A model generated the notes under the pieces. That model saw nothing but the letters and a program-made list of their open reading frames with translations. It did no database searches and was not told where the DNA came from. Positions 12,064 through 16,539 of a stretch of DNA of 64,000 nt are shown here, in pieces. This DNA comes from Thermoguttaceae bacterium. Lineage in GTDB: Bacteria; Planctomycetota; Planctomycetia; Pirellulales; Thermoguttaceae. Both the position numbers and the translations under genes were made by a program. Every line of letters begins with the position of its first letter. Positions within the stretch are counted from its first letter, which is position 1. The DNA is taken from the NCBI GenBank assembly GCA_025060325.1, contig JANXBW010000008.1, forward strand, positions 52,961-116,960. The letters run 5' to 3'.

Positions 12064-14742
12064 TTATAAGAACGCAAGCAAGGTCAGCCGGTAGACCTCA
12101 GCGGTTGCCTTAAGTGCCGCTTCCAGCGCCACTTGCCGGGATACTAGGTCGGAAACCACCTGAGCCAAGTCAACTTCGTATTCCTGGGCAAGCACTGCGC
12201 GAAGATCGATCATTTCCGTCTCCAGCCGATCTTTCAGGACTTCCAGGGACTGCTGTCTAGCCCCTAGTTCCGCGCGAACGTAGTTGAGGCGAAGGGAATA
12301 ACGGTCCAGGAGGCCTACAGCCCGCTCAATTTCGGGCAAATTGTCGTTGACTAGGGCCGTCTTTAAACGCAAAAGCGCGGTAAACAGCCCCTCGGCTTCA
12401 AGGGGGGCAACTTCTCGCCCAGTGAGGACTTGTTCACCATTCTGCTGGATGATCGCGCTAGCTTCGCTCGTTCCTGGGGGGAGTAATCCGAGGTGAACGG
12501 CGGCCAATTGCCCGGGGCTTGCCACCACGCGAAGCTTCCCAAGTCCCCCGGCTGTGTCAACAAGTTCGATACCGTTCCCGTACTTGGCCAGCCGCGCCAC
12601 CACGGCCGAACCATTGGCGACGTTTATCGGATGATTGTTGATCCGGTCAAGCACGTCGCCGATTGTCTTGCAGCCGGTGATGTCCACCTCGAACATTACC
12701 CCGTCCGAGCCGATGATGCGGAATTCGCATCCCGGAGCAAATCCGCCGCTTGTCACTTCCTCCCCGAGCTCGACTTTCCCTGAGCCTTCGACCGCCTGGT
12801 CACCGCCGGCCAGTTCGGCAACAAAATAATCGCGGATCTCTGGCGTGATGTCGAAGAGTCGAACAATATCGCGGGCTCGGGTCACGCCGGGGACGATTCG
12901 CACCTCAATGAGCCGGGCATTGGGATCGAAATGGATTGATTCGCTTCCCGGCCCACCGGAAGAATCCACAAATCTAACCCGAAAGTCGTTCCATTGGGCG
13001 CCTGGACTTCGGGCACGGATGGTCAGATCGTTGTCGGCGCCTACCGAGCGAATCGTGGCCGCCGCGTAATTGCCCCGACCGTCGTAGTCCACCACTCCCA
13101 AGCCGTAATTGAGGGCGGCCAAACGGGTCGCCGGCGAAAAGCTGCGGATCCCTAAATGGGTGGCTGTCAAACCTCCGTTTTCCCCAATGGCAAAGTCGGC
13201 GCCGCTGCGACGGGTCCTCACTACCAGGCGTTTGCCGTCCGCATGAATTTCGGCCAAGAGGCCGTATTGACGGCGATTAAGTATGTTGAGAAGATCCTCG
13301 ACGGTCCGTGCCTCGGAGATGTCAACCGTGTATGTCTCCTCACCGTTGCGAATTTGAAGGCCGGCGCTTTGGTCCCAGCGGATGCCTGCCCCCCAGGCGG
13401 TCACACCTGCCCAGCTCCCGGAGGGAGTGCTCGGCACAAGGCCCAAGCCCCCCTGTTTGTCATCCAGTGGATCAAGCCGTGCACGAAAAGGAAGGCCATC
13501 CCCCTGATGCGCGCGATTGATGGCCTCCACCACATGCCGGGCCTGTGTCTCGTAAGGAGCAATCCGGACTTCGATCGTCTTTTGATCTGGGTCGAAAAGG
13601 ACCCGTTCGTTGCCGACGGAGACTAACGGATCAGCCACGAACCGAATGCGGTAGTTGTTCCACTCCGGGCCTGCCTGCGAGGCCTCGACTATAATGTCGT
13701 TGTCTTGTCCGGGAAGCCAGAGGTGGGCCACCGCCCGAGCACCCAAGATGTTTTCAAGCTTGGTGTACGGCCGGACAGCAGGATCGAGATCGTCCCCCAC
13801 CAGGAGATCCGTACCAACCCCCAATGGCCGATAGATACCTAGCTCGCGTGCCGTCGTTCCTTCTCCTACTTCGGAGATGATCAAATTTCCTCCGGAACTG
13901 GGATCAAGCCGAAGCACAAGGCCCCGGGGCGTTAGGCCAACATGAAGAACGCGGCCGGACGGTGAGTTTTCGCGAATGATTCGCGCCACATCGCCCAGCG
14001 TCTCAGCGGAAGACAGATCGACAACAACCGTGCCTTCCGGCGATCCGTCGGAAATCGTGATGCTTCCCGGGCGGATCCCCCGACCACCGCGAAGGTCCGC
14101 CAGCCGAGTATCCCACGTCACCACGGGATCAAGATCAACCTGGCCCACTACTTCTTCCGATAGGGCCCCGAACACCTCGTGGCCATGAACATTGCTGGAG
14201 GCTAGCAAGTCGACGTCAACAAAGCTGGACAGGTGAACCAGATTGCCGCGGTATTCGATATAGCCTTCTGGCGTTTCCAAGAACGGTCGGATCTGGGGAT
14301 CACCCCCCGCAAATAAATACCGGCCACGAAAGTTTTGATTACCAGCATCAATGAGTTGACGGATGATCTCCTCAATTTGCAGGGCGGCTGCCTGACGCTG
14401 TTCCCGCGTTACCAGGGTGCCGGTGACGCTCAAGGCAAGCGAGCGAGCCTCGACCATCAGGTCGGCAATGCGGCTAAGGGCCACGTCGGTTGACCCTAGG
14501 TAAGTCTGGGTGGTGGCCAAATTGCTCTGCGCCTGTGTTTTTTGTTCGATCAGCCGCTGAAGCCGAATGACTCGGGAGGCCGCTATCGGGGCCTCGCCCG
14601 GCACTTGAAATCGATAACCCGTGCTCAGCTGAGTCTGCGTCTCAAAAAGCCGGCGTTGATTATAGGCAATCTGCTGGAGCAATCGCTCGCGAACAAATGC
14701 CTCGCTTACCCGAGTGGTGGAAACGCCAACAACACTGGTCAT
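12064..14742 (-). CDS. flgL: Flagellar hook-associated protein 3 (hook-filament junction), greatly enlarged
   Basis: FlgL joins the hook to the flagellin filament outside the cell. The N-terminal ~150 residues carry the flagellin-type D0/D1 helices (YNQRRLFETQTQLSTGYR, then FRGRYLFAGG). The C-terminal ~110 residues form the matching helices, ending in AEVYRLTLLAFL. At 892 residues the protein is nearly three times the usual ~300. The extra ~600 residues contain two alternating repeat types. Three copies resemble flagellin hook IN motifs (~222-306, 452-536, 667-757). Two copies of another ~65-residue unit lie between them (~346-412, 568-632), each with DND...WN..R.RFV and a downstream IEVRI. 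This is the last gene of the minus-strand cluster, 100 bases after flgK. The ribosome site is weak. Confidence 0.9.
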   Translation of the reverse strand: MTSVVGVSTTRVSEAFVRERLLQQIAYNQRRLFETQTQLSTGYRFQVPGEAPIAASRVIRLQRLIEQKTQAQSNLATTQTYLGSTDVALSRIADLMVEARSLALSVTGTLVTREQRQAAALQIEEIIRQLIDAGNQNFRGRYLFAGGDPQIRPFLETPEGYIEYRGNLVHLSSFVDVDLLASSNVHGHEVFGALSEEVVGQVDLDPVVTWDTRLADLRGGRGIRPGSITISDGSPEGTVVVDLSSAETLGDVARIIRENSPSGRVLHVGLTPRGLVLRLDPSSGGNLIISEVGEGTTARELGIYRPLGVGTDLLVGDDLDPAVRPYTKLENILGARAVAHLWLPGQDNDIIVEASQAGPEWNNYRIRFVADPLVSVGNERVLFDPDQKTIEVRIAPYETQARHVVEAINRAHQGDGLPFRARLDPLDDKQGGLGLVPSTPSGSWAGVTAWGAGIRWDQSAGLQIRNGEETYTVDISEARTVEDLLNILNRRQYGLLAEIHADGKRLVVRTRRSGADFAIGENGGLTATHLGIRSFSPATRLAALNYGLGVVDYDGRGNYAAATIRSVGADNDLTIRARSPGAQWNDFRVRFVDSSGGPGSESIHFDPNARLIEVRIVPGVTRARDIVRLFDITPEIRDYFVAELAGGDQAVEGSGKVELGEEVTSGGFAPGCEFRIIGSDGVMFEVDITGCKTIGDVLDRINNHPINVANGSAVVARLAKYGNGIELVDTAGGLGKLRVVASPGQLAAVHLGLLPPGTSEASAIIQQNGEQVLTGREVAPLEAEGLFTALLRLKTALVNDNLPEIERAVGLLDRYSLRLNYVRAELGARQQSLEVLKDRLETEMIDLRAVLAQEYEVDLAQVVSDLVSRQVALEAALKATAEVYRLTLLAFL

Positions 14743-14841: not shown

Positions 14842-16539
14842 CTACAAATTGGCCAGGATTTCCAGTAACTCAGTGAGCGCGGCGATGTAACGGGCCGAGG
14901 CTTGGAAGGATCGCTGGAAGGCAATAAGCCGCACCGCTTCTTCATCGAGGTTGACCCCGCTAATCGCCAGCTTCTGGCTTCGAAGCGTTTGTTCGAAAAC
15001 ACGCGCACTGTCGGCCAAGGCACGACTGACGGAAGAGTTTTCTGCGACTTGGCTGACCAGCCGGTCGTAAAGTACGGCCAAGCTTGCGCCGCCGTGGCTT
15101 TCTAGCGGTGTTTCAAAAAACCCCGCCAATTTGGCGGCAAGCTCCGTGTCGCGACCAATGCCGCTCAGGCTGGATGCAAACGTGGCCGGCACTGCGCGGA
15201 CAACCGGATTGACTTCCACGTCAAAAGCGGAGGTACCCTGGAAAAACGTGTTAAGCCCCAAGGCAGCCAGGATACCACTTGTATCTTCTGCGAACGCAAG
15301 GGCTTGGTCTGGCGAATCGGCGCGGATCTCCAGCCGACCATCAAGTCCCACCGAAGCAGAGACCCCATCCACAGCGTTAAGGGCCTCGGCCAACGTGCGC
15401 AGTGTGGTATCCTGCGGGCCGCCCAAGAGTTTAACGGGAATAACTGTGGTTTGCGTTTGGCCGGTCTCCGCGTTGTAAACGATTAGCCGAAAGCTTCCGT
15501 TGCGAACCGGGTAAGGCAGGCCCGCCTGATCTAGAGGGACTTCCGTTTTTCGAGCCCCGTAGCTTGAAACAAGCCGACTATACCCCTGGAGGCCCTGACC
15601 TTGAGAATAAAGACGATTAAACTCGTAGATGAGAGCCTGCGTAAATTCGTTGAGCTGCCGCAGGAAGCCACCGAGAATCTCATCTCGGGCGCGAATAAGC
15701 CCCGCCAGTTGTCCGCTCGTCGTCTCAAGGGGGGAGTCAGTCTCGGCTAGGTGAATGAAAGCAAGGGCCGAGCCTCCGTCGGATTGGAAGCGGACTTCTA
15801 CCGGCCGGCGGACTCCTTCGCTGACAAGATAGAGCCCACCGCAGTAGACAGCCACGCCGCCGCTTTGCTGCTCCTCAACCCGGATGTCGATGATTTGTGC
15901 CAGCTCTTCCAACGCAGCCAGACGCTGGTCGCGAAGTCCCACCGCATCGCTGGAGGAGGCATCCCCGCCTTCCATCTCGGCGATACGGATATTCAGTGTG
16001 CGGATCTGGTCCGTCAGGCGGTTAATATCATCGGCCAGCGAGCGGACTCGCTCATTCAGATGATCCCGCAGTTCCTGCACCCGTGCCGCTAGGCGCCGGA
16101 TCTGCAGGCAGAGCGTCTGCCCCTGGAGTACCGCCAAATTGCGGACGGAAATACTCTCGGGTTGATTAAGGATCTCGCTAATACTGGCAAAGAAATTGGT
16201 TAAAGCCGTGCTTAAATCTGTGTCGCCAAGCTCATTTAGTAACCCTTCCAATTGAACCAAGGCATATTCCTGAACTTCCCCGCCGGCCCGATCGCTGACC
16301 GCTGCCCGCAACCGATGTTCGAGGAAATGGTCGATTCGCTGGATGACCCCCTTAACTTGCACCCCCAGACCCAGAAGTAGCCCGCCGTACCTCTGAGTGG
16401 GAGCCGGTGAAAGAAGAAGCTCCTCCCGGACATAGCCGGGCGTCTGGGCATTGGCGATGTTTTGGCCAATAACTTGAAGGGCTATCTGGGTTGCCCTCAA
16501 GCTATTGGCCGCCAGTCGAATCGAACCATACAGAGACAT
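14842..16539 (-). CDS. flgK: Flagellar hook-associated protein 1
   Basis: FlgK is the first hook-filament junction protein, exported by the flagellar type III system. The N-terminus has the rod/hook family motif (ALQVIGQNIANAQTPGYVRE). The coiled helical part runs to about residue 200. The C-terminus ends with SGVNLDEEAVRLIAFQRSFQ and a final hydrophobic helix, as expected. The 565-residue length is within the usual range. It sits between the flgN-like gene and flgL, the standard order. The GAG-type ribosome site is weak. Confidence 0.95.
   Translation of the reverse strand: MSLYGSIRLAANSLRATQIALQVIGQNIANAQTPGYVREELLLSPAPTQRYGGLLLGLGVQVKGVIQRIDHFLEHRLRAAVSDRAGGEVQEYALVQLEGLLNELGDTDLSTALTNFFASISEILNQPESISVRNLAVLQGQTLCLQIRRLAARVQELRDHLNERVRSLADDINRLTDQIRTLNIRIAEMEGGDASSSDAVGLRDQRLAALEELAQIIDIRVEEQQSGGVAVYCGGLYLVSEGVRRPVEVRFQSDGGSALAFIHLAETDSPLETTSGQLAGLIRARDEILGGFLRQLNEFTQALIYEFNRLYSQGQGLQGYSRLVSSYGARKTEVPLDQAGLPYPVRNGSFRLIVYNAETGQTQTTVIPVKLLGGPQDTTLRTLAEALNAVDGVSASVGLDGRLEIRADSPDQALAFAEDTSGILAALGLNTFFQGTSAFDVEVNPVVRAVPATFASSLSGIGRDTELAAKLAGFFETPLESHGGASLAVLYDRLVSQVAENSSVSRALADSARVFEQTLRSQKLAISGVNLDEEAVRLIAFQRSFQASARYIAALTELLEILANL

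Follow-up and report, generated by a model that had tools for sequence, protein, structure and literature searches.

We analysed a 64,000-nucleotide window of DNA from a Thermoguttaceae bacterium (contig JANXBW010000008.1, positions 52,961 to 116,960) and focused on flgL, the gene for the hook-filament junction protein, and on the two kinds of repeat unit (IN and R) in its product, of which R appears to be kin to a domain on the outside of some phage tail sheaths. The flgL gene (12064..14742, minus strand) encodes 892 residues and adjoins flgK, the gene for the first junction protein (14842..16539, minus strand; TIGR02492, 296.5 bits), which sits directly upstream and in which a two-unit R profile found no R unit when the organism's own genome was searched at E≤10. 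The whole FlgL protein scored 183.8 bits against TIGR02550, above the curated cut-off of 127.2. Among Pfam models, Flagellin_N matched residues 20-146 (E = 2.2e-12) and Flagellin_C reached merely 0.044. An N-terminal helical core (residues 1-200; 14143..14742, minus strand) holds the Flagellin_N match, and a C-terminal helical core (residues 778-892; 12067..12411, minus strand) is matched by positions 280-387 of TIGR02550. Two named relatives, Thermoguttaceae/Thermogutta metagenome assemblies that we treat as congeners, have FlgL proteins 77% and 65% identical to this one, which makes the host a Thermogutta-like planctomycete, with 88% and 70% identity in the N-terminal core and 84% and 73% in the C-terminal core.

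The helical ends are separated by an insert of about 570 residues that holds three IN and two R units, all encoded on the minus strand. They are IN1 (residues 219-304; 13831..14088), R1 at site a (334-419; 13486..13743), IN2 (453-533; 13144..13386), R2 at site b (557-641; 12820..13074) and IN3 (665-754; 12481..12750), each detected by self-alignment and by profile. Unit pairs were scored by local alignment against 1000 shuffles and the boundaries were taken from profiles. R1 and R2 are 41% identical and align with a score of 146, compared to a best shuffled score of 51. IN1-IN2 (73) and IN2-IN3 (56) were not equalled in 1000 shuffles, and the weakest pair, IN1-IN3 (48), was reached by 11 of them. 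The preliminary description had seen two alternating types of unit from the letters alone, and the self-alignment bears this out; the DND, WN..R.RFV and IEVRI motifs that it listed are present in the R1-R2 alignment. It gave the R units a length of 65-67 residues, which does not stand, as the profile boundaries give about 86 residues each. R1 and R2 can also be aligned as DNA, with a score of 23 (300 shuffles reached 17 at most) and identity at 101 of 162 bases. The G+C content of R1 and R2 is like that of the remainder of flgL, so there is no sign of a recent import of R. The flagellin hook IN motif PF07196 matched FlgL within IN1 (E = 0.00096 at residues 227-254, covering 28 of its 55 positions) with 19.7 bits, under its curated cut-off of 22.7, and recognised nine of 40 IN units from relatives at E≤0.01 (best 1.4e-6), the 40 being a subset of 100 near-complete units.

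To place these units we surveyed the FlgL proteins of the order, which we take to be Pirellulales, and mapped units in relatives with iterated profiles. An FlgL family model matched 40 of 60 genomes, our own included, and whole regions were taken from 37 of the other 39; genomes G025 and G035 were left out of the FlgL survey, as their rows look like flagellins. The 40 FlgL open reading frames (ORFs) reduced to 37 distinct ones, since loci L035 and L036 duplicate L033 and L034 and the contig of L072 ends after IN1; L071, which is kept, is cut after IN3, and some of the R units counted are partial matches. Every one of these 37 insert-spanning FlgLs, the window's included, has exactly three IN units, and the number of R copies ranges from zero to six. 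At least one R is present in 36 of the 37, and in each of these the IN1-IN2 gap (site a) is occupied; R also occurs between IN2 and IN3 in 13 and after IN3 in 22. The order of the window, IN-R-IN-R-IN, recurs in 4/37, and the commonest order is IN-R-IN-IN (10/37). Outside the order we examined 19 FlgLs picked for their spread of length and family. At E≤0.001, six of them had three IN units, one each had four, two and one, and ten had none; R was found in none of the 19 at that threshold (nearest 0.0067), and FlgLs with three IN units and no R occur outside the order. Four of these outside FlgLs (L179, L181, L167 and L168) hold long R-free stretches between IN units, which makes the IN-IN gaps look like general insertion sites.

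R units are not restricted to FlgL. The two-unit R profile, run on the window's own genome at E≤10, matched just FlgL (two units) and one flagellin (four units); the flagellin (L001) is cut at the end of its locus, and its four R units lie inside. Among the matches listed, the main flagellins of the order came to 44 rows or 42 distinct ORFs (G040 and G032 are counted twice), of which 35 carry R and none carries IN; R is present in 25 of the 29 distinct main flagellins that are uncut, again among the matches listed. Twelve lower-scoring flagellin-like ORFs (34-106), left out of this count, had no R, and three had IN. At least two ORFs with a FliD N-terminal domain carry both IN and R, in L065:13342-15000 as an IN unit followed by two R and in L138:3312-4400 as an IN unit followed by one R. 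Within the order, 90 of the 146 genomes contain R at E≤1e-6. Across the phylum, where the searches scored a subset of each genome's candidates (13 for R, four for FlgL), R was recovered at E≤1e-4 from 16 of 392 genomes, namely 11 of the order (our own included), three elsewhere in the class and two elsewhere in the phylum. In three of the five genomes outside the order, the frames that hold it are 2389 to 6358 residues long. One outside locus, L091:1-2793 in G063, encodes a flagellin by its Flagellin_C match (4.4e-21) that has an R-like unit (5.9e-12) and, unlike the main flagellins of the order, an IN unit (1.9e-7); the R match in another outside locus, L092, was not confirmed by a second R profile.

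We then compared R with proteins of phages and plasmids. A tblastn search of 50,697 phage records with the R consensus returned two records at E≤1. The better was the tail sheath of Vibrio phage Valp1 (3e-5, 40% identity over 92%), and the second was an unannotated protein of a Methanosarcinales virus, beside a tail gene (E = 0.3). The same consensus had two matches in 72,556 plasmid records, both of them phage tail sheath proteins (3e-4 and 9e-3). The R profile scored 30.1 bits on the Valp1 sheath, 52.7 on the Methanosarcinales virus protein and 11-19 on three more sheath or tail proteins that were found through Valp1. A profile of R (A3, built from 53 of 78 near-complete R units) was compared with a profile of the phage-side domain (A6, built from six sequences with no planctomycete row: three annotated phage sheath proteins, one phage tail protein, one plasmid-borne sheath and one archaeal-virus protein), and the two matched with 97.3% probability over 78-79 of about 84 columns, co-linearly and in both halves. 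The domain compared corresponds to residues 42-125 of the Valp1 sheath. Against seven phage-side domains the R profile scored 57.5; the controls failed, with at most 18.2 in 60 column shuffles, 12.3 for the reversed domain and 8.9-9.9 for two sheath core domains. A reciprocal search with A6 at E≤0.001 matched 53 of the order's 146 genomes, and its two best matches (3e-17 and 1.4e-15) were flagellins with several R units; FlgLs were matched as well (for example in G058 and G055). The tail sheath family PHROG 279 was matched by four of the 53 R units (best 2.8e-6). Taken together, the profiles indicate a resemblance between R and an outer domain carried by some contractile-phage tail sheaths. 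The domain is optional there. Of the 389 phage records that the Valp1 sheath matched, 12 cover at least 80% of it, most of the matches listed align only after residue 136, and a pyocin sheath aligns at residues 3-38 and from 158 on. Compared to contractile sheaths (PF17481, PHROG 279), some of which have an outer domain that aligns with R nearly throughout, FlgL is without the sheath core; PF04984 and PF17482, both present in the Valp1 sheath, are not among its Pfam matches. The Methanosarcinales virus protein, encoded at L110:2444-3442, adjoins a major tail protein and has its R-like module at its start.

Several results weigh against this relationship and against R as a shared coat. At E≤0.001, A6 matches neither the window's own genome nor its two congeners. 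R1 taken alone has no match in Pfam, PHROG or NCBIfam, R2 has none in PHROG, and none of nine real units submitted singly matches PHROG family 279; the link to sheaths is visible through relatives, profiles and consensus. PF17481 (tail sheath domain II) was reached at E≤0.01 by 2/53 single units, at best with 0.0083 and under the Pfam cut-off, which is no better than unrelated matches that we take as chance (NCBIfam PDH at 0.00049 and CheD at 0.0025 for single units, Pfam HMA at 0.034 for the consensus); the Valp1 sheath's own match to PF17481 is itself under the cut-off (20.6 against 31.4 bits). An AlphaFold2 model of the R2 region (residues 556-660, seven rows; pLDDT 83.5, pTM 0.76) is confident and favours the link in having five viral proteins as its best BFVD matches (probability 1.00, E = 9.6e-4 to 6.7e-3), but none of them is named a sheath protein, and Foldseek of the model against the PDB gave nothing at E≤0.001. 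VIA-align on the Foldseek list, which favours neither side, placed the phage phi812 baseplate chain 9euf_T (Z 2.9, root-mean-square deviation 3.6, 63 aligned) below the unrelated selecase 4qhh (Z 3.3), with 3aih_A at Z 2.0. A full-length FlgL model from three rows (pLDDT 52.9) is too poor for the arrangement of the units, and the R copy number in FlgL and flagellin was uncorrelated over 24 genomes (rho 0.28, p 0.19). Sequence searches of solved structures were uninformative. A3 reached at best 0.0062, mostly with OspA and with some copper-binding and antibody chains, A4 reached 0.038 (FliD at 0.14, FlgK at 0.45) and A6 had one match at 0.84.

Weighing both sides, we propose, with a probability of about 0.75, that R decorates the outer side of FlgL, is kin to the sheath domain and is shared with flagellin and FliD. 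The helical ends of FlgL should form a ring of 11 subunits under the filament, as has been described for other species (PMC12221982). An old array of three IN units would make up the outer domain of FlgL, and R would have been put into and after this array in the order, with at least one unit entering the IN1-IN2 gap in almost every member examined, and with variable insertion in the IN2-IN3 gap and past IN3. R itself is predicted to be a compact module, rich in beta structure and with a single main helix, that presumably shares its ancestry with an outer beta domain (a 'domain II'-like insert) present as an option in some contractile-phage sheaths. It is likewise an outer-domain block of most of the main flagellins examined, and is found in at least two FliD-like ORFs and in giant ORFs. 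The presence of R in a flagellin of this cell as well suggests that junction and filament share one kind of coat, and R most likely decorates the outside of the tube from the junction to the filament, where its domains may contact neighboring subunits sideways, meet the environment, or both. The outward position, which the preliminary description had also assumed, should hold by analogy with Xanthomonas FlgL, whose variable D2 domain lies exposed and may strengthen the junction (crystal structure; PMC6155364). The preliminary description also raised possible adhesive or sheath-like properties; 'sheath-like' turns out apt in a sense that it did not intend, since R resembles a domain on the outside of phage tail sheath proteins. 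The best reading is that R would be a shared outward-facing module on tubular assemblies, with a possible role as a shell or in adhesion.

We consider it doubtful that the R units are mainly adhesive, binding surfaces or polymers, rather than structural. Giant frames of 5000-10000 residues carry R-like units, and the giant planctomycete frames that have them (loci L089 and L104 in G410, L090 and L105 in G331, L093 in G356, L094 in G238, and G012:C8 with 10,025 residues) include pieces with a matrixin-like peptidase and a PPC domain, another piece that matches Planc_extracel below the cut-off, and further pieces with no Pfam match; the company of the first two kinds would suit an adhesin. The outer parts are also less conserved than the core (within the genus, the five units of both types are 57-76% identical and the helical core 70-88%), and extra domains of sheath proteins, which sit away from the tube, have been proposed to stabilise the sheath or to aid adsorption (PMC9230969). 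Nevertheless, no ligand or binding site is known for R, and a protein present in 11 copies per flagellum, as counted in two species (PMC12221982), would be a poor site for an adhesin.

It also seems unlikely that R is an enlarged IN unit and that all five units form one family. Both types end in a strand-helix with the pattern 'T..dV...IN', their profiles matched at 82% or 53% (two alignments) over 28-29 columns, and three of the 53 R units matched PF07196 (best 3e-4). Yet this alignment spans just about a third of the unit, so that the common piece is at most the short strand-helix; the phage domain matches R nearly end to end and IN at 9%; and the six IN-R pairs of the window protein showed no similarity in the shuffle test (48 to 897 of 1000 shuffles scored as high).

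A likeness of R to the sheath domain through mere convergence or composition (beta structure rich in Gly, Thr and Ala) would account for the weak single-unit matches to curated models, which unrelated families equal, for the silence of the phage-side profile in the window's own genome, and for the lack of a significant match in the PDB fold search. We regard it as quite improbable, because the alignment is co-linear over almost all columns while the shuffled, reversed and other-domain controls fail, because flagellins head the reciprocal phage-side search, and because three of the four phage and plasmid records that the consensus finds at E≤1 are annotated tail sheath proteins, the fourth lying beside tail genes.

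The preliminary description explained the order IN-R-IN-R-IN by duplication of a two-domain cassette, a proposal that the trees contradict. In a tree of 111 IN units, IN1, IN2 and IN3 each formed one clade (support 97, 76 and 97). The R tree comprised 120 rows with matches covering more than 60 model positions, 77 of them from FlgL, and its 'fla' group includes FliD rows; the units group loosely by site (20 changes, compared to a shuffled mean of 61.8), with many forks unresolved. R2 of the window joined the R2 units of the congeners (97) within groups of site b and site c (support 83-90), and R1 fell among other site-a units (82-89). A clade of R1 and R2 of the genus was rejected (p-AU 0.003), in a test weakened in that an earlier tree was already at hand when the group was named. 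Given the trees and this rejection, the cassette explanation fails, the triple IN array is the older part and R was inserted. Duplication of an IN-R cassette within the window's FlgL would fit the alternation and the R1-R2 identity, but is highly improbable in view of the constant three IN units beside variable R, the separate IN clades (that of IN2 at just 76), the rejected R clade, the additional R after IN3 in the congener L034 and the R-free IN-IN-IN proteins outside the order. At an earlier stage R may still have duplicated within the order, with site b arising from site c or site c from site b.

Parts of this picture are already known, namely variable FlgL outer domains, giant flagellins with repeats, and a structural remark that links a phage sheath to FliD. 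Xanthomonas FlgL is alike in having a helical core with an inserted beta domain, which the published assembly model shows exposed on the outer side of the junction ring, and differs in its single D2, compared to the three IN and two R units (about 570 residues) of the window's FlgL (PMC6155364). Giant flagellins, among which the planctomycete Blastopirellula marina is counted, similarly bear repeated outer domains between the conserved ends of a filament protein; their domain-extension (DE) repeat is known from flagellins of Oceanospirillales type, and the accessible text of that study describes no FlgL repeat family and no relation to tail sheaths (PMC6248924). The insertion domain (InD) of the sheath of Vibrio phage XM1 resembles domain D3 of FliD by Dali, and an exchange with the host was suggested (PMC10457771); that likeness is structural and concerns FliD, not FlgL or flagellin. 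PF07196 is the known counterpart of the IN units, which match it, the window's score being under the curated cut-off. Searches of open-access literature, in its listings and selected passages, yielded no report of a sequence relationship between tail sheaths and the repeats of planctomycete FlgL or flagellin.

A wider proposal, to which we give somewhat less than even odds, is that one outer-coat module passed between contractile phage tails and flagella, with either side as the possible donor, and that in Pirellulales it spread to FlgL, flagellin and sometimes FliD, perhaps as one exchangeable coat. If so, two unrelated tubular machines would bear the same kind of outer domain, and junction, filament and cap would draw on the same module. 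Flagellar outer domains vary greatly and their origins are mostly obscure; the sheath link offers a possible history for one of them and a test of whether such domains are exchangeable coat parts. It also adds sequence evidence to the structural remark on phage XM1 (PMC10457771).

The FlgL searches gave some further observations. FlgL was detected at E≤1e-25 in 187 of the phylum's 392 genomes; the matches listed have open frames between 256 and 1632 residues long, the short ones being perhaps cut. On viral contigs, 216 stretches matched an FlgL pattern and none of them encodes a relative. Genome G036 has, besides a large FlgL on another contig, a short one of 411 residues with a full-length match (G036:C150:1765-2988; 307 bits), which may belong to a second flagellar system or stem from contamination. 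Flagellin- or FlgL-like ORFs of 272-304 residues occur in G017, G042, G044, G050, G051 and G057, genomes with large flagellins as well, and perhaps represent another flagellar system. At G414:C53:21303-21809, an FlgL-like match contains one in-frame TAA.

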